Position numbers and translations under genes: made by a program
Assembly (NCBI RefSeq): GCF_014897585.1
Contig: NZ_JABUXW010000010.1
Span: forward strand, 1-64,000
DNA length: 64,000 nt
Origin: Brachybacterium tyrofermentans
GTDB taxonomy: Bacteria; Actinomycetota; Actinomycetes; Actinomycetales; Dermabacteraceae
Direction: 5' to 3'
In this document: positions 5,995 to 28,550 of the stretch, in pieces
Position numbering within the stretch: the first letter of the stretch is position 1
Layout: each line of letters starts with the position of its first letter
The notes under the pieces: generated by a model
Told to the model about the DNA's origin: nothing
Database searches by the model: none
What the model saw: the letters and a program-made list of their open reading frames with translations, nothing else

Positions 5995-6272
5995 GCCGCC
6001 TCCGCCCGACCCAGCAGCGCTCCCAGGTCATGGCCCGCACGGGCGAACCGCTCCGCATGGGGCGGGCGTCCGTCTCCCCGCACGAGTCGATCCCCGCGCA
6101 GCGCGAACAGCTCCGAGATCTCGATGACCTCGTCCTCCACGCGTCCGCTGAGCCCGACGATCTCCCGGACCCGGCGCCGACCGTCGGCCAGCATGTCGAG
6201 GTGCACGACGAGGTCGATGGCGCTGGCGACGGTGGGGACGACGAAACGACTGGAGATGTTCTCCCCGGCGAG
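5991..6272 (-). pseudogene. tadA: tadA (CpaF-type ATPase), 3' fragment
   Basis: The frame encodes the last about 93 residues of a TadA/CpaF secretion ATPase. It begins at the repeat as L-A-G-E-N-I-S-S-R-F and includes the family's V-A-S-A-I-D-L-V-V-H stretch, where such ATPases contact the nucleotide-binding face. The N-terminal part is 20 kb away at 26249-27207. An apparent longer frame reaching 6341 is made of island DNA. The fragment still overlaps tadB by 4 bp. It cannot work alone because it lacks the Walker boxes. Confidence 0.92.
6259..6272. repeat. attL: 14-bp core repeat of the 20-kb island
   Basis: TTCTCCCCGGCGAG here is identical to 26249-26262. Bases flanking the two copies differ on both sides. 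On the minus strand the repeat encodes the L-A-G-E junction of tadA, and the tad reading continues perfectly from one side of the island to the other. Large serine integrases recombine at a short shared core of this kind, and one is encoded in the island. Confidence 0.9.
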
Positions 6273-6461
6273 AATGTCGAACAGGGGGTGCATGAACACG
6301 GGGCCCACAGCGACAACCGGACGAGTCTCCTCAAGCACCACGGGCCCGATGACGCCTACCCGTGTATCAGTGCCTAGGATCTTGATAGTGGCGCGCCCTC
6401 CCTGCAGACAGCGCGCGACGTTCGAATACGGTCACGCAGTGAAGATGATGGGCGGCCCCAG

Positions 6462-8240
6462 GTGCGAGAACATAACTACAATCCGGCGGTCGACTGGACT
6501 AGGTTCGATCAACCACTCTTTGATCGTTTTGCCGAATCCCTACTTGCACGCACACACCCTGCCGCAGAGGTAGAGGTGTTCAGCGACAGCGGGGGCGATG
6601 GAGGCCGAGATCTTCTCGTCCGCGAGAACGGCGAGCTGACGATCTATCAGTTTAAGTTCTGGACCGGCAACGTCACGAGCGCGCCAGCCTCGAGGAAGAG
6701 TCAGATCGAGAGATCGTTCATTTCGGCCCTCCAGCACGACCCCGACATATGGGTTCTCGTCGTGCCAGCAAAACTCAATGACACCATGAAAAAGTTTGTC
6801 GGGAACCTCCATGCCCGCAAAAATGTTCAAGACTCTGTTCACGATGCCTCGCGGGTGAAGATTGAACTTCTCGACGTCCTAAAACTTGATCAACTTCTAA
6901 TTAAATACCCGGAGACGATCGCGCTCATCCAGCACGAGGACCCCGCTTACCGACGTATTCTGGATCAGCTCGAAGCGCAGGGCCTAGGGCCGATCACAAA
7001 CTCCAAGTCCCTCAACCAGGCCATTCAAGCAGCCACAGACAGGATTGAAACCGGAAGCGTCAACTGGGATGCCCGCATCGACCACCGAGGCGGAAAGTCC
7101 CGGATACTCCCTGTGGCCCGACACCCTCAAGCACAGGCTCTAGAGCCGATCCGGACAAAGTACCTCTTCCAGTTCCCCACCGGGGACTCGTCAAATGACG
7201 TTTCCGCTCGCTTCGAACAGATGCTGGCTTTCGGTTCGGAATCTGTGGAGGTTTCACGAGATCACATCAGCGCAATTGACTACGAGGGACCGGAGATATT
7301 CAGGGATTCCTTCGCAGGTGACAGCGAAACTACATCATGGCTTTTCACACCGCAGGACATCGGGGTCGAAGCGTTGCCACACCTGCTTCTACTGACATCG
7401 CAGGATGACGATGTCGTCGAGCTACCCGCTACAGCATTGCGAGCAACTCGAGGCATGTACGGGGGCACCTACTCGTTTGACTGCGGTTCAGGATTAACAG
7501 CAACTATTACTGCGGACGCGCGCTCGCGACATAACTGGAGAGCCTCTTTCTCGCTTTCGCCAAAGCGTATTGGCGTAGTGGAATATCTTCTGGCCGTAGA
7601 GAACGCCCTCGCTATACAGCGCGCCACAAAGCTAACACTGATTTCGCCGAGTGGCGAAGAAGGCACATTGTCCCGCAGTGCCCCACCTGAGCAACGCGGC
7701 TCCGCCTCAACCCCCTCCGACCTAGAAATCCTTGAGGCCAGCGCACGCGACCTCGTAGCGATTCAACGAATGCGGCGGCAACCTTTGTCAATGCCGGAAG
7801 AAATGACCGGCCCCAACAGAATGATGCTGCGGACGCTACGCTTGGCTCTCGAGGGTCACCTAACGCCCTATCCTTTCAGGGAGCACCGCTGGATTCTTGA
7901 GGATGGCGCATCGATGGAAGGGCAGCTGGCGGCTAGTGCAGCGGGGCGTGGGGCTGGATTTACCGCACAGACCACCCCGGAAGCAGTGTTTGAAATCGGA
8001 GATAACCGCATTACACTCCCTCCACTAATCTACTTCCACCCAAGTTGCATGTTTTCTTATGTCGACGAAACTGCCAGAAAGGTCCGAGATGTCGCTACGA
8101 ACGGGGAGGCCTTTGTCATGTACTCGCCGCCCCTCCTTTCGGGCACGCCAAAAACGGCCACCCCCTGGGGCCTGCCTGACATCACCGAACCACGTACGCC
8201 GCGCATCGAGTGGGAGGGCTCTAACGAAGATGTGGGCTAA
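6462..8240 (+). CDS. Restriction-endonuclease-like (Mrr/PD-(D/E)xK) N-terminus with uncharacterised C-terminal region
   Basis: The 592-residue protein begins with a segment typical of Mrr-like nucleases: G-G-D-G-G-R-D at about residues 44-50 followed by Y-Q-F-K at 62-65, giving the D...QxK active-site pattern. The remaining about 400 residues match nothing I know, show no P-loop and no membrane segment, and may be a sensor or target-recognition module. The gene stands alone near the left end of the island, starts with GTG at 6462, and uses AT-ending codons (AAA, TTA, AAT) far more than its neighbours, a sign of separate acquisition. A stand-alone DNA-targeting defence nuclease is the likeliest role, but this is inference. 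Confidence 0.6.
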   Translation: MREHNYNPAVDWTRFDQPLFDRFAESLLARTHPAAEVEVFSDSGGDGGRDLLVRENGELTIYQFKFWTGNVTSAPASRKSQIERSFISALQHDPDIWVLVVPAKLNDTMKKFVGNLHARKNVQDSVHDASRVKIELLDVLKLDQLLIKYPETIALIQHEDPAYRRILDQLEAQGLGPITNSKSLNQAIQAATDRIETGSVNWDARIDHRGGKSRILPVARHPQAQALEPIRTKYLFQFPTGDSSNDVSARFEQMLAFGSESVEVSRDHISAIDYEGPEIFRDSFAGDSETTSWLFTPQDIGVEALPHLLLLTSQDDDVVELPATALRATRGMYGGTYSFDCGSGLTATITADARSRHNWRASFSLSPKRIGVVEYLLAVENALAIQRATKLTLISPSGEEGTLSRSAPPEQRGSASTPSDLEILEASARDLVAIQRMRRQPLSMPEEMTGPNRMMLRTLRLALEGHLTPYPFREHRWILEDGASMEGQLAASAAGRGAGFTAQTTPEAVFEIGDNRITLPPLIYFHPSCMFSYVDETARKVRDVATNGEAFVMYSPPLLSGTPKTATPWGLPDITEPRTPRIEWEGSNEDVG

Positions 8241-8458
8241 ACAGATGCTGTCTCGAGACATCCAGACCGATCGTCGGGCACGCCAACCACGAAATAGAGC
8301 GGACGGTCACTTCGCTACAAACTTCTTGAGTCTCCGCGTCCAAGGACAAGCACGGCGGGCGTGGCTGGGCGAACTTCGCAATGGCTCTGATACGGCGCAC
8401 CACCCTGGCCTCACCACACCGGGGCAGGATCGTCTGCCCCCTCCCCCACCATGAGCTC

Positions 8459-8665
8459 ATGAAAATGAAGGACTGGCTCCGCGACCTCGAGCAAGAGATC
8501 GACCGACGCGTCGACGCAGCCATCCGCCGAGGCTCACTCACGAGCGCGGACGAGACCCTGGAGTGCCGCACAGCCCCCAACGGAGAGCGCATGCACTTCT
8601 CGATCCGCGGCATGCTCGAGGACGGTGACGGGTCGCAAGATCCCGGCTGGATGGAACCCGCGTGA
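8459..8665 (+). CDS. Small hypothetical protein, first of a coupled pair
   Basis: A 68-residue acidic, helical protein of unknown function. ATG at 8459 is chosen because it is followed by the M-K-M-K-D-W-L start of a clearly folded-looking sequence; ATG at 8465 is an alternative. Its TGA overlaps the GTG start of the next gene, so both are probably one translational unit. The 218 bases before it (8241-8458) hold no convincing gene and could carry its promoter. Confidence 0.5.
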   Translation: MKMKDWLRDLEQEIDRRVDAAIRRGSLTSADETLECRTAPNGERMHFSIRGMLEDGDGSQDPGWMEPA

Positions 8666-9006
8666 GCGACCTCGATCTGTACTTCGCGCACCAGAAAGCC
8701 GTGCAGGTGACTCATGGCGTGACGATCCGCTATCGCCTTGCGCTGATCGGTCCATCGGTGGTCGTGCTGCACTCCGAGATCGATCCGACGCTGCCTGAGC
8801 GTTCGATCAGGATCACGGCGGGCCATGCCGAGCTGATCATCGACTCAGCGTCCTGGAGCGACCGCCGCGAGGAGCTCCAAGAGCACGTCCTTGCATGGAT
8901 GCTCGAACACATCGACCTGCGCGCAGCGCGACCCCGACCCGGTGCCAGGAGGTATGACGCCGTCTGGATGAGCGCATGGCAGGAGGCCAACCCGGGCAGA
9001 CGGTGA
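8662..9006 (+). CDS. Hypothetical protein upstream of the SRAP gene
   Basis: A 114-residue protein with alternating strands and helices (R-Y-R-L-A-L-I-G-P-S-V-V-V near residue 25) and no known family. It starts with GTG overlapping the previous stop (GTGA) and ends 63 bases before the SRAP gene. Co-location suggests these two small genes and SRAP are expressed together. Nothing in the sequence points to an enzyme. Confidence 0.55.
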   Translation: MSDLDLYFAHQKAVQVTHGVTIRYRLALIGPSVVVLHSEIDPTLPERSIRITAGHAELIIDSASWSDRREELQEHVLAWMLEHIDLRAARPRPGARRYDAVWMSAWQEANPGRR

Positions 9007-9069
9007 GCTCCGGTCCCCCAGTGTCAGTACTGAGTACGATCGAGGGCACAACGCCAAGGGAGGCAGCTC

Positions 9070-9783
9070 ATGTGCGGTCGGTATGTACTCGAGGTCGACG
9101 CTCAGGGACTCCTGCGGTCCTACGCCGCGCAACCGGCGAAGGCGTTCGACTGGGAGCCGGTCTTCAGTGTCGCGCCCCGCACCAAGGCCCCCGTGGTCCG
9201 CGAGCACATCGATGATGACGGCGAGCTGCAGCGCACGCTCGAGTTCGCGCGGTGGGGCTTCAAGCCGGCATGGGCCAAGGAGAAAGGTCCGCGGCCCATC
9301 AACGCCCGCTTCGAGACGGCCCACACCAACGGCATGTTCCGTGCCGGCTTCGCGAGCTCGCGCGCCGTGGTCCCGATGACCGGCTACTACGAGTGGGTCG
9401 AGATGGACGACGGGAAGCAGCCGTACTTCGTCCATGCCAAAGGCGGCGAGCTGCTGCACGCTGCGGGCTTGACCACCGCCGAGCAGAACGCCGACGGCGA
9501 GTGGGACGTGTCCTTCACGATCATCACCCGCGAAGCAAAAGACGCTGCGGGTGATGTCCACGACCGCATGCCGGTGTTCTTGGACCAGGACCTCATGAAC
9601 GAGTGGCTGGCACCGGGGAAGCTCGAGAAGGAGGAGCGCGAGCACCTGCACGGCGTGCTCGGCGACGTCTCCGAGGCGGTCGCTGCGTCGCTGGTGACGC
9701 ACCCCGTCGATCGGGCCGTGAACAACGTCCGGACACTCGACCGCAGCGACTCAGGCCTGATCAAGCCGATCCAGCTCAATTGA
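9070..9783 (+). CDS. SRAP family protein (SOS response-associated peptidase/HMCES-YedK-like), island copy
   Basis: SRAP proteins bind abasic sites in single-stranded DNA and form a covalent thiazolidine link through Cys2, protecting the site. The 237-residue product has the key features: Met-Cys-Gly-Arg at the start, N-A-R-F-E-T near residue 80, G-Y-Y-E-W at about 105-109 with the catalytic Glu, and H-D-R-M-P-V near 160. A good GGGAGG ribosome-binding site precedes ATG at 9070. A second, chromosomal SRAP gene lies at 28551 in this window; the two are clearly different in sequence. On a mobile element it may protect single-stranded transfer intermediates or modulate host SOS; that is inference. 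Confidence 0.92.
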   Translation: MCGRYVLEVDAQGLLRSYAAQPAKAFDWEPVFSVAPRTKAPVVREHIDDDGELQRTLEFARWGFKPAWAKEKGPRPINARFETAHTNGMFRAGFASSRAVVPMTGYYEWVEMDDGKQPYFVHAKGGELLHAAGLTTAEQNADGEWDVSFTIITREAKDAAGDVHDRMPVFLDQDLMNEWLAPGKLEKEEREHLHGVLGDVSEAVAASLVTHPVDRAVNNVRTLDRSDSGLIKPIQLN

Positions 9784-9808
9784 CGGCAGCAGACGAAGGA
9801 GGCGACTT

Positions 9809-9991
9809 ATGGAGCACACCAGGAAGTCCACGTCGACGATGACCGAGCACGAGCGCGAGATGGCCGCGAAGCTCGAGCGGATCATCACGGACCCTGAGGG
9901 CTACTACGCCACAGCCCGCAAGGCCGCCTACCGCGATGAGCTGCGCCGCGCGCTGATGCCCTGGCGGAAGAGCCACCCCCGTTCGGCCTGA
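9809..9991 (+). CDS. Small hypothetical protein downstream of SRAP
   Basis: A 60-residue, highly charged helical protein. It is supported by a perfect AAGGAGG ribosome-binding site at 9796-9802, spaced correctly before ATG at 9809, and by its position 25 bases after the SRAP stop. Function unknown. After it, 9992-10206 has no convincing gene: one plus-strand frame stays open to about 10211 but has no good start. Confidence 0.55.
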   Translation: MEHTRKSTSTMTEHEREMAAKLERIITDPEGYYATARKAAYRDELRRALMPWRKSHPRSA

Positions 9992-10206
9992 GTACGAGTG
10001 CCAACGGGACCGTGCGACTCTGAAACTCAGCGCGCTCACCGACCGTGGACTCGTGAACAAAGTCCATGAGGATTCTCGCCGACATCTGGTTGCCGAGGTG
10101 CTCGACCCGCACCTCCACGAGCGGATCGAACCCCCGCGCTCGGCATCCTCGCGACTCGCCCGGCTCAATGCCGTCGATCCTCGCGCAGCTGCTCACGCTG
10201 GTGGCT

Positions 10207-10320
10207 TCAGGTGAGCAATTCTGCTGCCGCTGCCGCATACGCGCGTTCGATGTATGCCTCGAGCTCGCGCAGATCCACGCGCCACTGCCCTCGGCCACCG
10301 ACGCGGATGGGACTGCCGCA
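10207..10320 (-). pseudogene. 3' fragment of an excisionase-family HTH gene, cut by the IS
   Basis: The 37 residues before the stop at 10207 read I-R-V-G-G-R-G-Q-W-R-V-D followed by L-E-A-Y-I-E-R-A-Y, closely matching the C-terminal half of the complete helix-turn-helix gene at 41133-41372 (I-K-V-G-G-R-G-Q-W-R-V-E and I-E-S-Y-I-E-R-S-Y). The frame is interrupted exactly where the inverted repeat of the insertion sequence begins at 10321. The N-terminal half is not found on the other side of the IS, so this junction is a deletion or recombination product rather than a simple insertion. Confidence 0.75.
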
Positions 10321-10333
10321 CGATCAGGTGTCA
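10321..10333. repeat. Left inverted repeat of the IS3-family element
   Basis: CGATCAGGTGTCA, the exact reverse complement of 11552-11564. It lies 45 bases before the orfA start. Confidence 0.8.
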
Positions 10334-10378
10334 CATGATCTGTGGCGCTGAGGAGCGTCACAGGGAAGGATGTGCACC

Positions 10379-10687
10379 ATGCCCGCTCCCTACCCCCAGG
10401 AGTTCCGTGACGACGTCGTCCGCGTCGCCAGGAACCGCGAACCTGGCCAGAAGCTCTCGATAATCGCGAAGGACTTCGGGATCTCCGAGTCCTGCCTGAC
10501 GAACTGGATGCGTCAAGCCGATGTCGAGGACGGTTCCCGGCCTGGCAAGACCCGTGAGGAGTCCACCGAGCTGCGGGATCTGCGTCGCCGTAACCGGCTG
10601 CTTGAGCAGGAGAACGAGGTCCTCCGCCGCGCGGCCGCCTACCTCTCGCAGGCGAACCTGCCGGGAAAATCTTTTACCCGCTCGTGA
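10379..10687 (+). CDS. IS3-family transposase OrfA (helix-turn-helix)
   Basis: The 102-residue OrfA contains the N-terminal HTH of the IS3 family (Y-P-Q-E-F-R-D-D-V-V near the start, then a helix-turn-helix around residues 25-45) and a leucine-zipper-like coiled coil (L-R-D-L-R-R-R-N-R-L-L-E-Q-E-N-E). It binds the terminal inverted repeats. ATG at 10379 is preceded by GGGAAGGA. OrfB is in the -1 frame; an A4 run at 10666-10669 is the probable slippage site producing the OrfAB fusion transposase. Confidence 0.9.
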   Translation: MPAPYPQEFRDDVVRVARNREPGQKLSIIAKDFGISESCLTNWMRQADVEDGSRPGKTREESTELRDLRRRNRLLEQENEVLRRAAAYLSQANLPGKSFTRS

Positions 10688-11544
10688 GCGAGCTCGCCGG
10701 CGATGGTGTCCCTGTCGCGGTGTCCTTGCGGGTCCTGAGGCTCTCCCGCCAGCCCTACTACCGCTGGCGGAAACAGCAGGTCACCGAGTCAGAGCTGGTC
10801 GAGGCCTACCGTGCCAACGCGCTGTTCGATGCCCACCGGGATGATCCCGAGTTCGGGTATCGCTTCCTCGCCGGCGAAGCGGAGGCAGCTGGCCAGCGCA
10901 TGTGTGAGCGGACCGCGTGGCGGATCTGCCGAGACAACCAGTGGTGGTCCGTGTTCGGGAAGAAGCGTGGGAAGAACGGCAAGCGCCCGGGCCCGCCGGT
11001 CCACGATGACCTCGTGAAGCGGGACTTCTCCGCTGACGACGTCAACGAGCTCTGGCTGACGGATATCACCGAGCACTGGACCGATGAGGGCAAGCTCTAC
11101 CTCTGCGCGATCAAGGACGTGTTCTCCGGCCGGATCGTGGGCTACTCCATCAGCGACCGGATGAAGGCTCGCCTCGCGGTAAACGCCCTGGACAACGCAA
11201 TATCCAGGCGTCCTGACGCTGCCAGTTGCATCGTGCATTCGGACCGCGGATCTCAGTTCAGGTCGCGAAAATTCGTGCACGCTCTGAACCGTCACCACCT
11301 CGTGGGATCGATGGGGAAAGTCGGCGCGGCCGGGGACAACGCAGCGATGGAGTCCTTCTTCGCTCTGCTGCAGAAGAACGTCCTGAACCGACGTCGATGG
11401 CGAACCCGGGAAGAGCTGCGGATCGCAATCGTCACCTGGATCGAGAGGACGTACCACCGTCGCCGTCGACAGGCCCGTCTGGGCCGGTTGACCCCCATCG
11501 AGTACGAGACCATCATGAACCCGACCGTCAGCCTGGCGGCCTAA
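10684..11544 (+). CDS. IS3-family transposase OrfB (DDE integrase)
   Basis: The 286-residue frame carries the rve-type integrase core. The catalytic triad is visible as Asp in W-L-T-D-I-T, Asp in H-S-D-R-G-S-Q and Glu in N-A-A-M-E-S-F-F, with correct spacing. The frame is open upstream of 10684 in the -1 register relative to orfA, reading K-I-F-Y-P-L-V-S-E, so it is normally made as an OrfAB fusion after frameshifting. All motifs are intact, so the element may still be active. Confidence 0.92.
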   Translation: MSELAGDGVPVAVSLRVLRLSRQPYYRWRKQQVTESELVEAYRANALFDAHRDDPEFGYRFLAGEAEAAGQRMCERTAWRICRDNQWWSVFGKKRGKNGKRPGPPVHDDLVKRDFSADDVNELWLTDITEHWTDEGKLYLCAIKDVFSGRIVGYSISDRMKARLAVNALDNAISRRPDAASCIVHSDRGSQFRSRKFVHALNRHHLVGSMGKVGAAGDNAAMESFFALLQKNVLNRRRWRTREELRIAIVTWIERTYHRRRRQARLGRLTPIEYETIMNPTVSLAA

Positions 11545-11551
11545 CCTCAGC

Positions 11552-11564
11552 TGACACCTGATCG
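11552..11564. repeat. Right inverted repeat of the IS3-family element
   Basis: TGACACCTGATCG, the exact reverse complement of 10321-10333, 7 bases after the orfB stop. The relaxase frame opens immediately after it. Confidence 0.8.
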
Positions 11565-11645: not shown

Positions 11646-12968
11646 GTGCACGAGATGATGCGCGAGCTCGACGAGGACTCCATCGCATATTGGGCCAAGC
11701 GGAACCCCAACATCGTCGTCGCCGACGAGGTGCTCAACGAGGCGATGGTCAACGACGGTGACGGCGGTTTCCGGCGCTGCGTCGACCGTCAGGACGTCTT
11801 GGACTATGGAGCTGATCGTGTCCGCCGCGTGAAGCGGAAGTTCCGTGATGACAAGCTCGACCCTACGACGAGCAAGATGAAGGGTGGGACGGTCACCACC
11901 TCCCTTCTCGTGTCACACCTCCCCAAGTCGATGTGCGTCGAGATCCCGGGCTTCTACCCCGTTCTCGACAGCAGGACCGGCGAAGCCGCGCTCGACGCCG
12001 ATGGCGAGCCGATGATGCGCAGCAGGTGGGTGGCGCGAGATCGGGACGAGGCACGGCGCTACTTCCAGGACGTCATCCAGTACCTGTCGGCTGAAGCGAT
12101 CCCCGGCGGGCCTGACGCTGTCCTTGGGTACGACATCCAGCACAGTGAGTCCACCCCGCACGTGCAGATCATCGCGGACACGTTCGCCCCCGACCCCAAG
12201 GACGAAGAGTCCCTCCGCGTGGAGTCCTCCCAGGCGTGGTTCTCCCACCGCGAGGTGAAGGACAAGCAGGGCCGGCAGAAGAGTGGGAAGACGAAGTTGC
12301 GCGAGTACCACCGGGGCCTCAAACAGCACCTGGTTGACCGCGGCTACGACATCTCTCCTGACTTCGACGAGAAGCGCCATCTAGTCGGGATGGGCAAGGA
12401 GGAGTACGGCCGGACGATGGACGCCAAGCGCTCTGTCGACATACTCCGGGACCGCGCTGTCGAGGACCACGAGAAGCTCAACGGCTGGGACGCCGAGCTC
12501 CTGGACCGCAGGCACGAGCTGGAGGGTGAGGCCGAGCGCCAGCGCGACCACATGGAGAGCCTCGAACGCCGTGAAGCGGACCTGCCGATGCTGCGCCGCC
12601 ACCTTGAAGAAGAAGTTCGCAAGGACGGAGTCAAGGCCGCCGAGGCAGAGATCAAGGAACACGTCCAGCGGGGAGTCGCGACGGCGCTCGCCCCGGCGCA
12701 GGCCCTCCTCGATCGCCAGCGGGAACAGCTGGAGGAGCAGCTCACCCTGGCGGCAAAGGAACGCGACGCATACACGTCCACCGCTGCCCAGTTCGATCAG
12801 ATGATCCGGAACCTGCAGCCGCTGGTCAAGAGGTGGGAACAGGCGAACCCCCACACCGACAAGGGAGCCCGTGCACAGAGGAACGCAGCGCGGCTGCGCC
12901 AGTTCGAACAGCGCGCGTCACAGTTCCGCAGCGAGGCTCCGGAGCATGACCCCCAGCCGGGCGAGTGA
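11646..12968 (+). CDS. MobV/Pre-type relaxase, N-terminally truncated
   Basis: Relaxases of this family nick plasmid or element DNA at oriT for mobilisation. The motif H-S-E-S-T-P-H at about residues 166-172 is the family's HxDExTPH metal-binding signature, and residues 270-400 are a long coiled coil. The reading frame is open back to 11562, right at the IS end, and still encodes relaxase-like residues (G-R-A-G-F-H-A-Q-H), but no start codon exists before GTG 11646. The family's motif I histidine lies in that lost N-terminal part, so the protein made from 11646 is probably inactive. The decapitation coincides with the IS. Confidence 0.75.
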   Translation: MHEMMRELDEDSIAYWAKRNPNIVVADEVLNEAMVNDGDGGFRRCVDRQDVLDYGADRVRRVKRKFRDDKLDPTTSKMKGGTVTTSLLVSHLPKSMCVEIPGFYPVLDSRTGEAALDADGEPMMRSRWVARDRDEARRYFQDVIQYLSAEAIPGGPDAVLGYDIQHSESTPHVQIIADTFAPDPKDEESLRVESSQAWFSHREVKDKQGRQKSGKTKLREYHRGLKQHLVDRGYDISPDFDEKRHLVGMGKEEYGRTMDAKRSVDILRDRAVEDHEKLNGWDAELLDRRHELEGEAERQRDHMESLERREADLPMLRRHLEEEVRKDGVKAAEAEIKEHVQRGVATALAPAQALLDRQREQLEEQLTLAAKERDAYTSTAAQFDQMIRNLQPLVKRWEQANPHTDKGARAQRNAARLRQFEQRASQFRSEAPEHDPQPGE

Positions 12969-13003
12969 GCATGTCCCGCCGCACACAGACGAAGGAGGAT
13001 CCG

Positions 13004-13591
13004 ATGAGGTACGGGTACACCCGCACGTCCACAGCGGACAAGCAGACCGATGATCTTCAGCGCCGTGCGTTGACCGACGCCGGGGTCGCAGAGCGCCAGA
13101 TCTACTCCGACCAGGTCTCCGGCACGAAGAAGACCGCGACAAGAGACGGCTGGACGGCGCTGGAGGCCAGGCTCCGCGGGGGCGACGAGCTGGTCGTGTG
13201 GAGGATCGACCGCATCGGGCGGTCGATGATCGACGTCATCACGACCGTCACCGACCTGACGGAGCGTGGCGTCATCCTTCGATCCCTGACCGATGGCATC
13301 AACCCGTCCACCCGCGAGGGCCGGCTCATGCTCACCCTCATGGCGACCTTCGCCGAGTACGAGCGCGACCTCATCCAGGAACGCGTCCAGGTCGGCGTCG
13401 ACGCGGCGAAGGCCCGCGGGGTGAGGTTCGGTCGCCCGGCACCAGATCCCGAGGAGACGGAACGGAGGGTTCGTACCGTGCGGCACCTCGTCGAGACCGA
13501 GCGCATGACGGTAACAGCAGCCGCACGGATGGTCGGGTGGTCCCGTGCGACCTACTATCGCCACGCCGACAAAGTGTCATCAACCGTCTGA
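13004..13591 (+). CDS. Small serine resolvase/invertase
   Basis: The 195-residue product is a complete resolvase-family recombinase: catalytic Ser9 in Y-T-R-T-S-T, the G-D-E-L-V-V-W-R-I-D-R-I-G-R-S core, E-R-D-L-I-Q-E-R on the long helix and a C-terminal helix-turn-helix ending R-A-T-Y-Y-R. ATG at 13004 is chosen because AAGGAGG stands at 12992-12998; an upstream GTG at 12965 has no such site. On mobilisable elements such enzymes resolve multimers. Its 3' end overlaps the convergent next gene by 12 bases. Confidence 0.92.
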   Translation: MRYGYTRTSTADKQTDDLQRRALTDAGVAERQIYSDQVSGTKKTATRDGWTALEARLRGGDELVVWRIDRIGRSMIDVITTVTDLTERGVILRSLTDGINPSTREGRLMLTLMATFAEYERDLIQERVQVGVDAAKARGVRFGRPAPDPEETERRVRTVRHLVETERMTVTAAARMVGWSRATYYRHADKVSSTV

Positions 13592-19200: not shown

Positions 19201-19624
19201 CGCCCTTAATCCACATCTGCTGTACGGCCAACAGGTCATTGTTCGAAGGATTCCTCAGATCGAGGTATCGGAGTATCTCGGTCTGCTTGTCACCGCGACC
19301 GTCGGCCCACTCAGCGCGGTAACCGTCGCGGAGCAGGTCATGCACCTCACGGTTAGCCCGCACCCGGTCCATGGCTGATCGGTCCTTGGTGAGCACCTCG
19401 ATGGCTTCGTCGATTGCGGTGTCCGGCACGCGCTCGGGGTTGAGCTGGCGCATCGCGACGCGCAGACGGTGCGTGAGCACAACATCGCGTCGGGAGTCGC
19501 GACCCAGGGTGCCCTGGGCTCCCAGAGTTTCCTGGAAGGCATCCACAGCGGTCCAGCCAAGTTGCTCAAGGAGTTCGATGCTCGGCTTCTCGACGTACCA
19601 ATACTCCGGACCGGTAGGAGTCAT
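16292..19624 (-). CDS. hsdR: Type I restriction enzyme, HsdR subunit
   Basis: HsdR is the ATP-dependent translocase and nuclease of the type I complex. The 1110-residue protein has the N-terminal nuclease site with Asp150 and E-F-K at about 164-166, Walker A T-Q-G-S-G-K-S at about 301-307, the D-E-A-H box near 407 and further SF2 motifs, then a C-terminal helical region. Size and domains are complete. ATG at 19624 overlaps the hsdS stop (TGATG); GTG at 19627 is an alternative. It is the last gene of hsdM-hsdS-hsdR. Confidence 0.96.
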   Translation of the reverse strand: MTPTGPEYWYVEKPSIELLEQLGWTAVDAFQETLGAQGTLGRDSRRDVVLTHRLRVAMRQLNPERVPDTAIDEAIEVLTKDRSAMDRVRANREVHDLLRDGYRAEWADGRGDKQTEILRYLDLRNPSNNDLLAVQQMWIKGELHSRRLDLALFVNGVPLVLMEFKEPGESVKAAYDNNLTDYRDTIPQLFIPNCFVLLSNGNEAKVGSTYSPREFFNDWKVIDAHGTRGEVALETALRGTCDPAVLLDLLENFVAYMERPGGLIKVLARSHQYLGVNAAIENLHRARAEQDKRLGVFWHTQGSGKSLSMLWFTQKVLRRLAGKWTFVMVTDRTELDTQLHGEFADAGAISPKANVHARSVAHLRELLAADHRYVFTLIQKFQPSKALGERQMPVLSTRSDVIVITDEAHRSQYDTLALSMRTALPNASMMGFTGTPLIAGKEQATREQFGDYVSVYNFRDAIEDGATVPLYYENRIPELQLVNENFSEDLNALLEEAEVDEDAEGQLARAFGTQYTLLTRPDRLKTIAKDLVSHFVGRGFTGKAMYVGLDKAAAVRMYNLVREAWTVHLEELRTKHDKLPELERPWLASRIELMETTDMAVVVSQSQNELKMLDDLGLDIRPHRDRMNREDLAEKFKDSKDPLRLVFVCAMWMTGFDAPSVSTIYLDRPMRNHTLMQTIARANRVFPEKDNGLIVDYVGVFRNLEKALAIYGAAGVGESPIEIIDALAAELDAAVVKVFEFCSSIGVDLAAMRDAEGFAHIAKRNATVEALLVDEETRTEFQEGARQARKLFKALLPDPRAAAQQRNVAAIRVVAERITEVTRPPKADIRTVTDAVDALLDRSVGAEEYVIRAAAEGTKPDPLIDLSLIDFEGLAAKFAGRKRAETDRLAQLLRQKAIASATRNPTRYELVERIEKLIDDYNAGSVNIDEYLRRLIELSQTLTAEEERSAREGLSEEELAIFDLLTQPDPVLTDDERETVKASARKLLEHLHDKLVQDWRRKVDVKNDVDSTIRQILDQGLPESSYTLDIFSSKVQLVFDHVLTAYGDDGESAFHSRANQRVPAQAVSFGGPIDVDKVADDVVARIHDDPALAARVASQLGATDVGGAAT

Positions 19625-20841
19625 CACGCCACCGCGCTCTCGCCGGTTGAGACTGTAGAAACCACCGCGTCCAAGTCGAGAGTCGAAACATCGATCTGCC
19701 CCGCTACCAGCTTCGGAAGGAGCAGATCACGCACACTGACCAGCGAAGTTGACTGTCGTTGAAGAACTACGCCCTCCTCGAACATCGGCAGTACTACTTC
19801 GTCCCATTGCGCAATGAGGTCGGCTGGTGGGCAAACCGCGGGCATCGCATGTACGACCCTTCGATCAAGCGTGGGCACCGCCGCACCAGAGGCCGACCGC
19901 CGAAGGTCGAGGTCGTCGAGCAAGAAGTACGCAAACCTCGGAGTCGCGAGTCGGAACTCCTTCACCCACAGGGACGTGTTCAACGGCCAGAAGTCCTCCG
20001 GAACGTAGTGGACAACACCGACGGTGCCGCTTCGTCCAGTTGTCACACCGGGGCCGACGGCCTTCGCCACATCATGGGTGCCTTGAACGCCCGATGCACC
20101 CATGACGTTTACCAGGCCAGGAGCGCGATCCTTCGTCGGTAGGTCGAACCCACGCTGCAAGAAGACATGTGAGTCAACACTCTCTACGGCCCACCCCTCA
20201 GGAATCGGGCCAAGGGCAGACTCGACCATGGGCGCGTCTTCATGGCCGGGATAGCGGAACTTCACGAACCACTCGCGGTAAATGGCCCGCGCCATCTCCT
20301 CCAGCACCTCAATCCGCCGCCGGCTGTTCTCAATCAGGTCGTCGATCGCCCTGAGGACAGCACCGATCATGGCCTGAGTGGCCCGGTCAGGGATCCGCAC
20401 CGGAACCCTCACGAGCGTTGACTGCGTTAGGTACGGCAACGCGGTGCCTGTCGCTGTGGCCGCGAAGTCAACGGTGTTCATGAGGTAGTGGAAAAGTTCC
20501 GGCTCCACCAGCTCCCTGGCAGGGACTGCCCCCATCATGTTGTTGTCGATGACCGTGTCGCGGATAAGCATTCGCACGCGATTTTGCTTCAGCGCTTCTC
20601 CAATCTTCGCGAATACCGTCGTCCCCGTAGAGAAGGGCTTCAACTTCAGTCGTTCCGCCTGCTCCGATGTGACCCAGTTGTTCGCCTCTTGGACTAGCAC
20701 TCGATTACCAGACAGGTTCATGTCGCTGACCTTGATAAACGGCATATCACCTTCGGAGCGGCCTTGCTCAGCGGCCTTAAACGCGTTCCCTGCACGGAGC
20801 GTGCAAATGTCTCCGAGGGCGAACTCCTGCCAGAGGCTCAT
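19624..20841 (-). CDS. hsdS: Type I restriction-modification specificity subunit HsdS
   Basis: The 405-residue protein has the two target-recognition domains and two helical spacers typical of HsdS: the first helical segment around residues 165-195 (A-I-D-D-L-I-E-N-S-R-R-R-I-E-V-L-E-E-M) and the second at the C-terminus (L-V-S-V-R-D-L-L-L-P-K-L-V-A-G-Q-I-D-V). It sets the DNA sequence recognised by the methylase and nuclease. It overlaps hsdM (ATGA) and hsdR, so all three are made together. The recognition sequence cannot be read from the protein. Confidence 0.95.
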   Translation of the reverse strand: MSLWQEFALGDICTLRAGNAFKAAEQGRSEGDMPFIKVSDMNLSGNRVLVQEANNWVTSEQAERLKLKPFSTGTTVFAKIGEALKQNRVRMLIRDTVIDNNMMGAVPARELVEPELFHYLMNTVDFAATATGTALPYLTQSTLVRVPVRIPDRATQAMIGAVLRAIDDLIENSRRRIEVLEEMARAIYREWFVKFRYPGHEDAPMVESALGPIPEGWAVESVDSHVFLQRGFDLPTKDRAPGLVNVMGASGVQGTHDVAKAVGPGVTTGRSGTVGVVHYVPEDFWPLNTSLWVKEFRLATPRFAYFLLDDLDLRRSASGAAVPTLDRRVVHAMPAVCPPADLIAQWDEVVLPMFEEGVVLQRQSTSLVSVRDLLLPKLVAGQIDVSTLDLDAVVSTVSTGESAVA

Positions 20842-22388
20842 GCTCTGATAATCCCTTGAACGGCCGAATCGACCTTTGCGCGCAGCACATCGGCCTCGTC
20901 ACCCAGCATCGTGAACACCTCGTACAGCGCTTCGAGATCTCCGATGAAGTCCACGTCGCTCTCGTCGACTGCGGCGCTGCCGGCGTAGCGGCCCGGGTTG
21001 AGACTCCAGCCCTGAGCTTCGATTTCGGCGCGGGTGGCAACCTTGCACAGACCTCCAACGTCGACGTACTTCCCGTCGGGAAAGTTTTCCGACACCAGTG
21101 CTTCGCTGCCTTCGTTGGTCTCTACGTGCTCCCCGCGGTAGAGACGGACGATGTTGGCCAAGAACTCGATCTGCTCAGGCAAGAAGTCGCGATGGGCGCG
21201 GTCGATCTGGCGAAAGATCTGCCGGGCGTCTAGGAAAAGCACAGTGTCCTCGCGTGGACTCCCGACCTTGGCTTTGTCGAGGAACCACAGGGTCACCGGG
21301 AGGGTCACGGTGTAGAAGAAGTTGGAGCTGATCGCGACCATGACGTCGACAGTCCCGGACTCGACGAGTTGCTTGCGGATCTCCTTTTCGGAGTGGCCCG
21401 CGTCGCCGGCGGAGTTGGCCATGACGAAGCCGGCGCGGCCCTTCGGGGAGAGCGCTGCGTAAAACTCCTGAATCCACAGGAAGTTGCCGTTGTCGGCCCT
21501 CGGTAGCCCAAAGGGGAACCGCTTGTCACCGGCCAGTTGGTCCTTCTTGATCTTGTCGACGTTGAAGGGCGGGTTCGCCATCACGTAGTCGAAGGCACCC
21601 ACGGCGCTGTGGGGGTCCTCGTAGTAGCTGTTGGCCTGGCGAATGTCGCCGGAAAGTCCGTGCAGTGCCAGGTTCATCTTGGCCAGTGGAACGGTGTCCT
21701 CGGTCTTCTCAGCACCGAAGACCGAGAGCTTGCGACTAGCAGAATCGTGGTGGCGCTCGACGAATTTTGCGCACTGGACGAACATGCCACCCGAACCACA
21801 CGCCGGGTCGAACACGCGGCCTTCGAACGGTTGCAGGATCTCGACGATGAGTCGGACGATGGAGTACGGGGTGAAGTACTCGCCACCGCCCTTGCCTTCC
21901 TGGGCAGCGAAGTTGGAGAGGAAGTCTTCGTAGATGAATCCGAAGGCATCACCCTCGAGCTGGGTTGGCAGCGGCGCGAAGAGCCGCAGCAAATCGATCA
22001 GTGTCGAGCGCTCTAGCTTCTGGTAGCCCCTCGGCAGGATGTCTTTCAGCTCCGGGTTGGCGGTCTCGATGGCCTTGACCGCCTCGTCGGTAGCCTTGCC
22101 GACATCGTCGCCCTCGGGCAGAGCCACCAGACTCGACAGCCGCGACTCGTCCGGGACGAACAGAACAGACTTCGCCTTGTAGTCCGCGATGGTCGAGGGG
22201 TTGCGGGCACTAGCCGTCGCTTCGACCTCACCACGCACAGAATCGAATCGGTTTTCGGCGTACGCGAGAAACACCAGGCCCAGCACGGGGTCGCGGTACT
22301 GGACGGGGGTGAGCTTCGAGTTAGCGCGCAGTTCATCAGCAGCGGCCCAGAGCGTCGCTCGCACCTTAGCGAGGTCAGTAGTCTTCAT
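20838..22388 (-). CDS. hsdM: Type I restriction-modification DNA methyltransferase HsdM
   Basis: The protein of about 516 residues is an N6-adenine methyltransferase. It has the N-terminal HsdM helical domain, the SAM-binding motif D-P-A-C-G-S-G near residue 195 and catalytic N-P-P-F near residue 273, followed by the N6-MTase core. ATG 22388 is used; GTG 22394 two codons upstream is possible. It is the promoter-proximal gene of the operon and would protect the host. All motifs are intact, so a functional type I system is likely. Confidence 0.96.
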   Translation of the reverse strand: MKTTDLAKVRATLWAAADELRANSKLTPVQYRDPVLGLVFLAYAENRFDSVRGEVEATASARNPSTIADYKAKSVLFVPDESRLSSLVALPEGDDVGKATDEAVKAIETANPELKDILPRGYQKLERSTLIDLLRLFAPLPTQLEGDAFGFIYEDFLSNFAAQEGKGGGEYFTPYSIVRLIVEILQPFEGRVFDPACGSGGMFVQCAKFVERHHDSASRKLSVFGAEKTEDTVPLAKMNLALHGLSGDIRQANSYYEDPHSAVGAFDYVMANPPFNVDKIKKDQLAGDKRFPFGLPRADNGNFLWIQEFYAALSPKGRAGFVMANSAGDAGHSEKEIRKQLVESGTVDVMVAISSNFFYTVTLPVTLWFLDKAKVGSPREDTVLFLDARQIFRQIDRAHRDFLPEQIEFLANIVRLYRGEHVETNEGSEALVSENFPDGKYVDVGGLCKVATRAEIEAQGWSLNPGRYAGSAAVDESDVDFIGDLEALYEVFTMLGDEADVLRAKVDSAVQGIIRA

Positions 22389-22409
22389 TGCCACAGGATA
22401 TCTGCGACA

Positions 22410-22434
22410 GCTGACAGATTGGCCAGTAGTCAGC
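22410..22434. promoter_or_regulatory. Inverted repeat upstream of hsdM
   Basis: GCTGAC (22410-22415) and GTCAGC (22429-22434) are perfect 6-bp inverted arms separated by 13 bases, in the 134-base divergent gap between hsdM and the small plus-strand gene at 22529. It could be an operator or leader hairpin for the hsd operon. No clear -10/-35 boxes were identified. Confidence 0.25.
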
Positions 22435-22528
22435 TTCTCGATACAAGCGGGACTGAGGAGTGAGTCCGCAGCTGCCAGCGGGCTAGCCTCCCTACTAGCT
22501 TCGTGACGAGTCGACCGAGGAGGATCCG

Positions 22529-22687
22529 TTGCCTGACATCACCGAGACGCCCGAGTTCGAGGAATGGCTCGACCGCATGATTGACCGGTTCCCGGCCCCT
22601 AGTCCCGAGGTCGCACGGCGGCTTGTAGACCTCCTCGGCCCCGAACACGGCGACGGCCCCGCATCTGACGAGTCGACCGGCAACTAA
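22529..22687 (+). CDS. Small acidic protein convergent with the serine integrase
   Basis: The 52-residue frame starts with TTG at 22529, six bases after GAGGAGGA (22517-22524), a strong ribosome-binding site that supports it. The product is acidic and helical (T-P-E-F-E-E-W-L-D-R-M-I near its start). It ends inside the integrase stop region, overlapping by 4 bases. Small proteins of this shape occur beside integrases in other actinobacterial elements as far as I recall. A recombination directionality role is possible but untested. Confidence 0.5.
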   Translation: MPDITETPEFEEWLDRMIDRFPAPSPEVARRLVDLLGPEHGDGPASDESTGN

Positions 22688-24339
22688 GCCTTCCCGGCGT
22701 CCGGACCGTCTTGCGCCGGCTCGCCCTCCTCGACGTCCGCCCCGGCCTGTCGATCCCAAGAATCGAGCAGGAAGTCGCCGGGGAGCACGTCGACTCGCCA
22801 GACGTCAAAGGCCCGGCCGCGCTTGGTCGCCTTGTGGATCTGCACATCGAGCAGCAGCCGGATCACGTCGCGACGGTCCATGAGGTCTGCCTCGCCCCAA
22901 CCGGCAGCCACAGATCCGGCACTCAGCATCCGTCGCAAGGCCGGCGAGGTGACCGGGGCGACCTCCTGGCTCCGCAGCTGATCGAGTTCTTGTTCGATGC
23001 GCAGGTCCTCGGCAGCGTAGGCACGCAGAGAGATGTCCCCTGCGCCCCTCAGCTCTTCGAGGTCATCCCGCTCGCTCTCCTTCGCCGTTATCAGAGCGTG
23101 GAGATCCGGACCCGAATCTTTCGCCTGCGGCCGCTGCCGGAAGGCCTCGGTGAGGAAGCGGCGAAACCCATCGGTCTCGAAGAGTCGAAGTACGAGCGTC
23201 TCGACCATCTTGTCGACCTTGGGGGCCGTAATGGTGACCTTCCTGCACCCCTCGTGGTCGCAGGTATAGGCCCGTGGCATGCGGGACATATTCGTCCGTG
23301 CCTTCATTCGGGCCCCGCATTCGCCACAACGAGCGATGTGGGACAGCAAGTGGCGTGGAGCAGGCCCTCTAGGAACTGGTGTCGACCGCCGGGATGGGTT
23401 GCTGAGAACAGCGTTCACCTTCAGCCAGGTCCCGTACTCGATGATCGGTGCCCACGTTGCTTCCCCGATGTCCTGTCCCTGGTGGATCCGCCTACCAGCG
23501 ATGGTCGGGTTGACCAGACGCTGTCGGAGCGAAGCGGGATGCCATGCCTCGACAACGCCCCGTGGGTTCTCTTCAAGGGTCTTGGTGCTCGGCCTCCGCG
23601 GGCTCGGCACGCCTCTCTGGTTCAGGTCCATGGTGACCTTGCGCAGCGATACCCCGTCGAGGATCTGCGTGGCGGCCGCGACGAGCACCTGGGCTTCCGG
23701 TGAGAGCACCTTCGGCTCGTCGGAGTCAGGAAGCACCGGCATTAACGCTCCCTGATCGTCCTCCACTGGCGATCCAGTGCCGTCGTCAAGGACGTACGGA
23801 GACTGGTCCAGCAACGAGCCCGTCGTAGCGTCGTAGACACGCCTGTAGCCATATGGAAGGCGACCGTGGGGGCGCTTGAGCTCTGCGTTACGACGAACTG
23901 TACGGACGTTTCGGTCCCGAATATCCGAGGCGTCGCGCTCGGCGATAAGAGCATCGAGGCTCGCGTTGAACGAGTCGTTGGAGTGCGAGAGGTCGTAGCG
24001 TCGCCCCTTGGAGACGAGGTCGACGCCCGCCCCCAGGCACGCGGCACGCAGGGGCAAGAACGCTTCCAGGTCTCGCGCTGCACGTGAGGCTTCCCAGACG
24101 ATGAGGACGTCGACTGAACCGGCTGCGATCAGTGTCAGCACCTCGATGAAGCCCTGGCGCTCCCGCTTCGCTGATGCGCTTGCTGAGCGGTTGTCATCCC
24201 GGATGATGTGATCGCTCAGCACGGTCACACCGTTCAGGTCCGCCCACGCCTGGCACTCGCGGATCTGGTCGTCGACGCTGGTTCCGCGGTGCTTGGGATC
24301 CCGCGATGCACGACCGTAGATCAACCCTCGCTCTGCCAC
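22684..24339 (-). CDS. int: Large serine recombinase/integrase
   Basis: The 551-residue enzyme is the likely integrase of the 20-kb island. It has a resolvase domain with catalytic Ser12 in Y-G-R-A-S-R-D, a recombinase domain from about residue 155 to 300 (H-G-R-L-P-Y-G-Y-R-R at its start), a zinc ribbon with Cys338, Cys341, Cys360 and Cys365, and a coiled-coil C-terminus. This class joins attP and attB at a short core without host factors and usually needs a separate directionality factor for excision. It starts with GTG. It lies 1.9 kb from attR, with two genes between. Confidence 0.95.
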   Translation of the reverse strand: MAERGLIYGRASRDPKHRGTSVDDQIRECQAWADLNGVTVLSDHIIRDDNRSASASAKRERQGFIEVLTLIAAGSVDVLIVWEASRAARDLEAFLPLRAACLGAGVDLVSKGRRYDLSHSNDSFNASLDALIAERDASDIRDRNVRTVRRNAELKRPHGRLPYGYRRVYDATTGSLLDQSPYVLDDGTGSPVEDDQGALMPVLPDSDEPKVLSPEAQVLVAAATQILDGVSLRKVTMDLNQRGVPSPRRPSTKTLEENPRGVVEAWHPASLRQRLVNPTIAGRRIHQGQDIGEATWAPIIEYGTWLKVNAVLSNPSRRSTPVPRGPAPRHLLSHIARCGECGARMKARTNMSRMPRAYTCDHEGCRKVTITAPKVDKMVETLVLRLFETDGFRRFLTEAFRQRPQAKDSGPDLHALITAKESERDDLEELRGAGDISLRAYAAEDLRIEQELDQLRSQEVAPVTSPALRRMLSAGSVAAGWGEADLMDRRDVIRLLLDVQIHKATKRGRAFDVWRVDVLPGDFLLDSWDRQAGADVEEGEPAQDGPDAGKA

Positions 24340-24372
24340 ATCGATCAGGCTAGCCGGTGCGCTCCCCCGCGA

Positions 24373-25575
24373 CTACGTTCTCCACAGGTCGAAGAGGCCC
24401 GGTGCGGGCTTGCTGCGCATCCGAGACTCTTCTCCGTGAGTCAGGTCAGGAATCTCGCCCTCCGGAGGTTCGAACCCCTCGACCGGGTCGAGCTGCTCGA
24501 TGTACTCCCCCGCCCAGGAGATGAAGTCTGCGCTCTCTGGCCCCGACCCAGACTTCAACTCATGCAGATAGGCACGCATCTGCTTCGTGCGCTCCCAGGA
24601 TTCAACGCCCTCGAGCAGCTTCTTCTCCCACTGGGCATAGTGCTCGCGGCGTTGCGCGAGCAGCTGAGCTGCCTTCTGGCGCTCCTCTTCGCGCCGGCGA
24701 TGCTGCCGATGAGATGCCTCGAGCTGGATTTCCTTCTCGGTCGCGAGCTGCACCAGATGAACAACGCGCGGGATGAACTCATGAAGCGGCTTCCACACGG
24801 TCTCGACCAGCCGCGTCGGCGTTCCGAGTCGGGTGTAGAGACGCAGGCAGATCAGGCCCGTAGGCACGTAGTCCCACCGACGGGACCATGAGTATCCCGA
24901 ACGGCGCTCACGCTTGAGTTCCTCCTCGGTCTTCACGTGCTCGACCTGGCGGTCGTACTCTCCGATCCTCACGACCACTTCTGCGCTGCCAGCGTTCAAG
25001 GTCACCAGCGGGTCCCCCGTGTACGGAGAGCCGGATGTGCGCTTCTTCGGCTGTTCGTGTGCCGTGACGGTGAAACCTGCTTCGATAGCTGCGGCGACCA
25101 GAAGATCAGCAGCAAGGAGCCCGCGCTGCCGACCAGCTACGTCCGCCGGTAGAGCCACCGGCCGATCCCTTAGCGCCTTCACCACAGGATGGGGTCGTAG
25201 GAATCGTCTGCTCGCCAGCTCGGGACTCAACACCGGCGGTGTGACCACCATCGGCTTGGGCTGGACCGAAGCCTTCGCAGTACGGGCCTCCTTGGATGCG
25301 TGGGAGCCGGCGGCTGAATGTGCCTTCCGACCTGCCTGGCGCGTCTGTCGCCCTCCCGCACTGTCCACCGGGTACTCGCCATGCTGGTGCATATGCCGCC
25401 CGACGTCCGTGACCGCGACCGAGTACTTGCCGCCGGCGCGGGAGATCGAGACGAGCTCGCGCCCCTGAAGTGCCCGAGCTGCATGCTTCCAGGAGTCCGT
25501 TGGCGGCGCACTCTCCGGAGATGTGCACAGCCAATCAAGGATTGTCTTTTGCGCGGAATTTAGCTTCCAGTCCAT
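24373..25575 (-). CDS. Hypothetical coiled-coil protein of the island
   Basis: The 400-residue protein from ATG 25575 (M-D-W-K-L-N-S-A-Q-K) is not recognised. Residues 10-60 look like a winged-helix (T-I-L-D-W-L then a variable loop and S-V-A-V-T-D-V-G). A proline/alanine-rich linker follows, then a conserved-looking mixed domain, and a long Arg/Glu/Gln-rich coiled coil (about 275-340). A TTG at 25635 would add 20 residues but has no ribosome-binding site. It lies 33 bases before the integrase on the same strand, so the two may be co-transcribed. Confidence 0.6.
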   Translation of the reverse strand: MDWKLNSAQKTILDWLCTSPESAPPTDSWKHAARALQGRELVSISRAGGKYSVAVTDVGRHMHQHGEYPVDSAGGRQTRQAGRKAHSAAGSHASKEARTAKASVQPKPMVVTPPVLSPELASRRFLRPHPVVKALRDRPVALPADVAGRQRGLLAADLLVAAAIEAGFTVTAHEQPKKRTSGSPYTGDPLVTLNAGSAEVVVRIGEYDRQVEHVKTEEELKRERRSGYSWSRRWDYVPTGLICLRLYTRLGTPTRLVETVWKPLHEFIPRVVHLVQLATEKEIQLEASHRQHRRREEERQKAAQLLAQRREHYAQWEKKLLEGVESWERTKQMRAYLHELKSGSGPESADFISWAGEYIEQLDPVEGFEPPEGEIPDLTHGEESRMRSKPAPGLFDLWRT

Positions 25576-25700
25576 GGGATCAGTCTCGCCGATCCGTCGC
25601 TTACTGGAGGGGGCTTGGAGAGCCGTTCTGGACAAACTCGAATCGACGCCAGATTCGACGCAGAACCTGCAAGTGCGCCGTCGAAGCTAGTGACAAAAAT

Positions 25701-25735
25701 GAAGAAGGCCCCGGCGCGCGCCTGGGACCTTCTTC
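25701..25735 (-). terminator. Intrinsic terminator of the small gene at 25747
   Basis: On the minus strand GAAGAAGG...CCTTCTTC arms with a GC-rich inner stem form a long hairpin (one mismatch, one bulge), followed by a T-rich tract (ATTTTTG, complement of 25693-25699). This is a classical rho-independent terminator reading leftward. Confidence 0.75.
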
Positions 25736-25746
25736 TGTTCGCAACC

Positions 25747-25989
25747 TCAAGGAAGGGGGCGTGCCGCCAATACACCAGCGCCGTAAGCCCACATGGATTC
25801 CATTACGTACTGCCAGAACTTCCGCCCTGACCACTTCGACCGCCAAGCGGTCACTTTGCTGTAGAACTTCTTCGACATGTCTGCTCTCATGATGAACCTC
25901 CCGTACTTATTGTCGTTGTCACATTCGCTTTTGGTCTTGGACCATTCACTCAGTAGACGCACGACGCCAAGAATCAGCAGTGCCACCAC
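25747..25989 (-). CDS. Small hypothetical membrane protein near attR
   Basis: The 80-residue frame from GTG 25989 begins with a hydrophobic stretch (V-A-L-L-I-L-G-V-V-R-L-L) that continues in frame upstream (W-G-V-L-E-V-V), so the true start may be earlier. The rest is basic and aromatic. An intrinsic terminator 12 bases after its stop supports expression. Function unknown. Confidence 0.45.
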   Translation of the reverse strand: MVALLILGVVRLLSEWSKTKSECDNDNKYGRFIMRADMSKKFYSKVTAWRSKWSGRKFWQYVMESMWAYGAGVLAARPLP

Positions 25990-26003
25990 GACCTCTAGGA
26001 CGC

Positions 26004-26020
26004 CCCAGATTTGAACTGGG
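26004..26020 (-). other. tRNA T-arm-like stem-loop
   Basis: On the minus strand the sequence is CCCAG-TTCAAAT-CTGGG, a perfect 5-bp stem with a consensus T-loop. No complete cloverleaf could be folded around it: acceptor and anticodon arms do not match. It may be a relic of a tRNA 3' end carried by an ancestral attachment site, or chance. Confidence 0.3.
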
Positions 26021-26248
26021 TCCGCCCCCAGCTTTCAGGCTACGAACTCTCTAAACCTATCAGACCGGCGGGACCCGCGGAAGTGCGCTTGATAGGCCCT
26101 TCGCGTGCCCACAACTGCGAACGGGACTCCTCGTTGCCGGGTCGGTCGGAAGGCGAGCAAGCATCGGCAGGGACTCGCCCCCTGTTGTTCAGACCACTGC
26201 TGACTGAACTCGTGTCGGCACCAAAACTTGCACACCCTGTATTCTCTT

Positions 26249-26262
26249 TTCTCCCCGGCGAG
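26249..26262. repeat. attR: 14-bp core repeat of the 20-kb island
   Basis: TTCTCCCCGGCGAG, identical to 6259-6272. Left of it is island DNA; right of it is the intact 5' part of tadA on the minus strand. Confidence 0.9.
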
Positions 26263-28549: not shown

Positions 28550-28550
28550 C

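Follow-up and report, generated by a model that had tools for sequence, protein, structure and literature searches.

Mobile elements with large serine integrases interrupt Tad/Flp pilus genes in Brachybacterium and its order and may block transformation of the host

Introduction

Why should a mobile element settle in the middle of the gene for a pilus motor? This question is raised by a stretch of 64,000 nucleotides from Brachybacterium tyrofermentans (contig NZ_JABUXW010000010.1, positions 1 to 64,000; hereafter the window), in which an island of about 20 kb separates the two ends of tadA, the motor ATPase gene of tad-1, one of two Tad/Flp pilus islands (tad-1 and tad-2). A preliminary description of the window had proposed that the island was inserted precisely by a serine integrase and that it may act as a reversible switch, comparable to the elements that interrupt comK or sporulation genes. 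We examined the junctions, compared the site with uninterrupted relatives and surveyed large serine integrases (LSRs) and tad genes in the genus, the family and the order. We put the chance at about one half (roughly 0.5) that the island is an integrative element whose break in tad blocks the transformation of the host and thereby shields the element from replacement.

Junctions and empty sites of the island

The 14-bp core TTCTCCCCGGCGAG is present in direct copies at the left end (6259..6272) and at the right end (26249..26262) of the island, both on the plus strand, as found by repeat search and by alignment to empty sites. The repeat was present as the preliminary description had stated, and scanning both strands of the 4,609,434-base genome returned these two exact copies only. 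With one core included the island measures 19,990 bases. To its right lies the 5' piece of tadA (26249..27207, minus strand; codons 1 to ~319), which matches Pfam T2SSE and reaches 92% identity to an intact relative across codons 1-324. The 3' piece (5991..6272, minus strand; codons ~315 to the stop) lies to its left and reaches 90% identity to an intact relative.

The two pieces, the 5' one running from 27207 to 26249 and the 3' one from 6272 to 5991, were kept apart throughout the alignment. In all 29 uninterrupted Brachybacterium tadA loci they adjoined and overlapped by exactly 14 bp, with nucleotide identities of 72.6-86.2%. For 14 empty loci on the coding strand we counted the mismatches to the window across the 14 bases of the core: six loci had none, six had one and two had three. 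The insertion into a motor gene of the TadA/CpaF type is thus as precise as had been claimed, and relatives do hold the uninterrupted gene that the claim called for. Translation of the genes of four relatives gave an intact TadA of 408 aa, which together with the stop fits the 409 codons of the earlier reconstruction. The protein of an intact relative's tadA matches CpaF of solved structures.

The insertion site is LLAGEN (codons 315-320 of tadA), downstream of Walker A (199-206), the IIVGEVR stretch (271-277) and GLPGLASIHANS (291-302). The island severs the last ~90 codons of tadA and parts tadB and tadC from it, and judging by the missing C-terminal codons the gene would be inactivated. No promoter or terminator was predicted in 5900-6600 and an Rfam scan of window positions 1-30000 gave no match. 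A tRNA gene as integration target was rejected, as there is no tRNA in the window.

The island encodes an LSR of 551 aa (22684..24339, minus strand) with PF00239, PF07508 and PF13408 over cut-off, in agreement with the serine integrase attributed to it before. We found the traits of large serine integrases in this protein, namely a resolvase catalytic domain with its serine, a Recombinase domain and a zinc ribbon; PF00239 covers residues 7-152, YGRAS stands at residue 8 and CxxC at 338. Its phage relatives show 33-34% identity (best 15 of 391 records) and its plasmid relatives at most 31.5% (best 10 of 23 records). No close relative was confirmed among the genome contigs or viral contigs searched.

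Insertions in the tad islands of the genus

In the reference locus L154 the order around tad-1 is yihY, tadA-tadB-tadC-flp1-tadE-tadF-tadG, prfB, where the gene names (flp1 included) were assigned here by sequence, position and the order in Micrococcus luteus. Of the 37 genomes surveyed most keep the order tadA-tadB-tadC-pilin-tadE/F-tadG intact, as does L154. Among 38 Brachybacterium genomes tadA is present whole or in part in 37; we recorded 29 whole genes, five split with an LSR and four other cases. The splits fall near codons 318 (G000), 87 (G002), 262 (G014), 202 (G015, in Walker A) and 150 (G022). Genome G024 has an LSR within tadC near codon 290, and G012 has one within flp1 near codon 52-59, the gene halves being ~48.6 kb apart. 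In G005 tadA is absent and flp1 is represented by its 3' end only; 4.1 kb away there is an LSR whose sister in the tree is the G012 one, and we counted this LSR as a probable flp1 insertion. Three genomes were not scored as tadA insertions: G028 with several frame breaks on one contig, G027 where contigs end, and G010 where codons 1-89 are followed by a deletion.

Much of tad-1 is lost around the former break in G010 (locus L060, tadA codons 1-89 only) and in G005 (L124, flp1 end only), and these losses look as if insertion had been followed by deletion. The gap between tadG and prfB measures ~5.2 kb in G002 (L130) and ~1.2 kb in L154.

The tad-2 locus was fetched for 37 genomes (not G032) and the island was found in 36 of them (not G031). 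An LSR interrupts the Flp pilin gene of tad-2 at codon ~33 in five of the 36 (G008, G009, G011, G026 and G029). The far half in G026 lies outside the fetched stretch, and joints were printed for four of the five splits.

Altogether we obtained 38 matches to the LSR family PF07508, distributed over 19 of the 38 genomes. Thirteen of these matches lie in tad islands, across 13 of the 38 genomes, and their targets are tadA (5, at five sites), tadC (1), flp1 (2) and the tad-2 Flp pilin gene (5). The LSR is at most 72 bp away from the tad fragment in 11 of the 13 cases, 1.9 kb away in the window and 4.1 kb away in G005. Assuming a target of 9.7 kb in 3.7 Mb and treating the loci as independent, although some are related, the binomial probability of finding at least 12 of 38 LSRs in tad is 2.7e-22. 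For the other 25 LSRs neither tad reference set was met within the fetched stretches. Twelve non-tad LSRs have neighbours that could be named by eye, and the genes next to or close to them are complete or almost complete: a histidine phosphatase gene next to rsfS in seven cases, inositol monophosphatase in two, exonuclease III in two and ilvC in one.

The seven LSRs at the histidine phosphatase site (L098, L103, L104, L107, L108, L117 and L118) form a separate clade, and the host gene is nearly whole. At locus L105 of G022 two LSR genes stand in tandem (6419-7792 and ~8460-9000), of which the upstream one is broken by a stop. Conservation of the site as the reason for the choice of the tadA sites was tried and rejected: 10,683 of 20,000 random draws were at least as conserved as the five genus sites, and for ten tadA sites the same was true for 13,178 of 20,000 draws of 40-bp windows.

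Integrases, elements and gene halves

The elements inserted in tad differ from one another. The window has a type I restriction-modification island; elsewhere we observed a 9 kb element with phage capsid and primase, a 10 kb element with Prim-Pol, a 7 kb element with a D5-like primase and TIR, and further elements that are ~40.6 kb and ~48.6 kb long. A TIR-domain protein at L058:6343-7236, within the 7.4-kb element in tadA of G022, is possible defence cargo.

We also found that the integrases differ. In a tree of 45 LSR sequences the tad-targeting LSRs are scattered over deep branches; the tree includes the partial frames G029b and G144 and omits the 175-aa fragment G022c, the second G022 LSR, and the frame-broken LSR at the Arthrobacter locus L329. 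LSRs at the same site are not always sisters, and codon ~202 is shared by three that are distant from one another. The window LSR is sister (support 1.00) to G009a, which is located near ilvC and not in tad. Several inner branches are weakly supported and we therefore made no count of target switches.

None of the ten halves that come from the five split Brachybacterium tadA genes contains an internal stop. The ratio of non-synonymous to synonymous change (pN/pS) to the nearest intact gene was 0.16-0.30 for the ten halves, compared to 0.05-0.34 for 18 intact genes. On this measure the halves show no gross decay, and a mild relaxation after insertion is possible. The insertions would then be either recent or often reversed, two cases that pN/pS cannot separate.

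Occurrence beyond the genus

Outside Brachybacterium nine further genomes of the family were covered; none has a split tadA, and one of the nine gave distant matches only. At the level of the order 20 of the 248 searched genomes were followed up, picked for a weak best E-value, and we detected at least eight split tadA genes with an LSR in other families; given this choice of genomes the number is a lower bound and not a rate. The splits lie near codons 126 (G231), 300 (G262), 302 (G178), 148 (G163), 156 (G094), 78 (G078), 200 (G087) and 202 (G144). In seven of the eight the LSR is at the joint, and in G144 it is ~0.3 kb away. Five of the 20 genomes (G160, G255, G133, G193 and G254) have a 5' stub of tadA with no LSR in the fetched stretch, and in seven (G063, G079, G072, G067, G224, G169 and G104) tadA is whole or nearly whole, or distant paralogues only were found.

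Among 80 loci kept from a search of named genomes, the Arthrobacter records H-02-3 (codon ~335) and H16F315 (~293) also carry LSR sequence behind an interrupted tadA, the LSR frames of H16F315 being broken. In two more records, MYb227 and ov407, the gene breaks off near 330-334 and the adjoining 3 kb contain no LSR. Five different insertion sites in tadA were seen in Brachybacterium, and some ten when the whole order is considered, each placed to within a few codons from the alignment ends.

Genes for DNA uptake are widespread in Brachybacterium: comEC was present in all 38 genomes and dprA in 37, which supports a complete uptake system. Extra dprA copies (~350 aa) occur in G007, G009, G011 and G014, one of them in G011 at ~3 kb from an LSR, and these copies may ride on mobile elements.

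Cargo of the island and neighbouring genes

The genes for HsdM (20838..22394), the specificity subunit HsdS (19624..20841) and the restriction subunit HsdR (16292..19627), all on the minus strand and matched by both Pfam and PADLOC, provide the island with a full type I restriction-modification set. Between the LSR and the right core a protein of 420 aa is encoded (24373..25635, minus strand) for which none of Pfam, PADLOC, NCBIfam and PHROGs gave a match. The remaining island frames described here are on the plus strand. A small serine resolvase of 208 aa (12965..13591) matches PF00239 only, plus a sub-threshold helix-turn-helix, and has no Recombinase domain. For the 440-aa protein next to it (11646..12968) searches of Pfam, PADLOC, NCBIfam and PHROGs returned nothing, and the PDB nothing meaningful; judged by eye from a motif, it may be a Pre/Mob-like relaxase. 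A transposase pair (10370..11544) with HTH_Tnp_1 and rve is presumably of the IS3 type. Towards the left end there are an SRAP-domain protein (9070..9783, PF02586) and a 592-aa protein (6462..8240) whose N-terminus matches the candidate defence model PDC-M58A (E 6e-9) and which has no Pfam match. A second SRAP-like frame was noticed by eye in the right flank (28452-29297). No phage structural gene was found among 15 island frames with Pfam and three with PHROGs.

We compared this cargo with the fetched loci of the other genomes, some of which hold element ends only. The SRAP gene recurs in the tad-inserted element of G012 at 62%, resolvase-type genes recur in those of G009, G011, G026, G178 and one Arthrobacter locus, and an HsdR at 32% is found in that of G011.

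To the left of the island follow tadB (5122..5994, minus strand; PF00482, 90% to a relative) and tadC (4181..5125, minus strand; PF00482, 84% to a relative). The small pilin-like gene flp1 (3785..4015, minus strand) is cut by a second element and is represented by codons 1-78 only, as judged by comparison with a relative; the other half is on another contig of the same genome (C21, L163:1991-2044). A 16-bp core (3790..3805) is common to both halves by sequence comparison. This second element, inserted in flp1, encodes a tyrosine integrase (2532..3632, minus strand), with NCBIfam tyrosine recombinase matches of E down to 1e-12 that are below the cut-offs. The window begins contig C5, and the remainder of the tyrosine-integrase element therefore lies elsewhere.

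Discussion

We propose that the window LSR placed the island by recombination at the 14-bp core in tadA, and that the island would be one of many elements in the genus and the order with integrases aimed at the two Tad/Flp islands. Cutting a motor or pilin gene would shut off the pilus. In M. luteus both tad clusters, tad-1 and tad-2, are needed for transformation and for surface Flp pili (Angelov et al. 2015, PMC4322843); for the pilus of Brachybacterium we infer the same role in DNA uptake. If this pilus takes up DNA, the element would stop its host from replacing it with element-free DNA by transformation, and the blocked uptake would be a benefit under selection. Excision, of which the LSR is presumably capable, would restore tadA exactly, and reversibility is plausible given that the island has a serine integrase and that the frame of each half stays open with no internal stop. 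More tentatively, and at slightly less than even odds, we extend this to the order: tad-1 and tad-2 would be a battlefield on which prophages, satellites and restriction islands with independently evolved integrases break tadA at no fewer than ten sites, and also tadC and two pilin genes, blocking transformation to avoid being cured and freeing the pilus on leaving.

There are precedents in other competence genes. Croucher et al. (2016, PMC4774983) describe mobile elements that disrupt comYC, comFA, comK and comM, and elements that break competence genes are held there to escape removal by transformation. Like the prophages in comK, comFA and comYC, the window island lies mid-gene in what would be a competence gene. 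Different integrases enter comFA at different sites, as happens in tadA here, and comYC encodes the pilin of the competence pilus and so resembles the pilin targets here. The disruption of competence genes also shares with our loci that different elements converge on the same machinery, in this case tad. Unlike in those systems the target is an actinobacterial Tad/Flp pilus with about ten sites in tadA, and Flp, the tad genes, Micrococcus and Actinobacteria do not occur in the text of PMC4774983. In the literature searched, which covers few subscription journals, no paper on tad genes as integration targets was found. A term search of papers on integration sites turned up neither tadA nor pilus in PMC12884075 or PMC10111431, and no tad, pilus or Flp in PMC12424338.

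Several observations weigh against a selected block of transformation. The median pN/pS is higher in the tadA halves than in the intact genes (0.20 vs 0.12). The five insertions in the tad-2 pilin gene represent one LSR clade and one site and not five independent choices, and no insertion was seen in cpaE2, tadA2, tadBC2, tadE2 and tadG2 where these were within the fetched stretches. The window LSR is located 1,910 bp inside the right end of the island, away from the core. comEC gave one match per genome with a complete or almost complete domain in 37 of 38, the error-prone G028 showing it cut at 221 of 270, and none of the 37 main dprA copies is split; comEA and others were not searched. Furthermore the order-level survey was made without a control set of other dispensable genes, and transformation of Brachybacterium was not met in the literature searched.

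As comEC and dprA are unsplit, the targeting may concern the pilus and not DNA uptake, which makes the loss of a phage receptor a serious rival. On this reading Tad pili would bring phages to the cell, as the Caulobacter Tad pili do in serving phage adsorption (PMC11067988), and elements that break the pilus would guard the host and themselves from superinfection. Only pilus genes were struck among the genes searched, and some tad-inserted elements carry phage-type genes. However, one literature search gave no phage that uses a Tad pilus in these hosts, and the frames of the window island searched for phage structural genes yielded none; we consider this explanation unlikely. We are similarly doubtful that the integrases have simply drifted to conserved and dispensable genes, where a break in tad is tolerated and brings no benefit. 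The tad islands are nearly universal in the genus (tadA in 37 of 38 genomes, tad-2 in 36 of 37 fetched loci), insertions in essential genes would be lost, and related integrases do share sites, as in the tad-2 pilin clade. Yet many distant integrases are concentrated in about 10 kb of genome, the 12 nameable non-tad LSRs have complete or almost complete genes next to or close to them, and the tadA sites show no higher conservation than 40-bp windows drawn at random from tadA.

The comparison with comK in the preliminary description remains apt, and the notion of a switch that serves the host fits the wider pattern less well than sabotage of the pilus by the elements. Such a switch would work like those at sigK or comK, the element leaving on cue so that the pilus is turned on, and the gene could indeed be restored from halves without stops. 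In the single assembly at hand no excised form was seen, and a survey with one genome per species would not reveal a switch. The sites differ and the elements largely differ from genome to genome, which suggests repeated invasions, and we regard a host-serving switch as very improbable. Sabotage is favoured over a developmental switch by the different elements, the many sites and the two tad islands involved. In regulated gene integrity, a concept attributed to Mageeney et al. in 2020, an integrated element reportedly inactivates a gene and excision can restore it. The precise insertion in tadA and the intact gene in 29 of 29 empty loci resemble this, for an island known from its sequence alone.

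If blocked transformation is indeed what these elements gain, the conflict between mobile elements and transformation would extend to the high-GC Gram-positive bacteria with a Tad-type uptake pilus, as known from M. luteus. The tad LSRs also form a collection of integrases whose target sites have been mapped. The 13 of 38 genomes with an LSR in a tad gene provide a natural set of broken and whole alleles with which the transformability of Brachybacterium, Arthrobacter and their kin could be tested.

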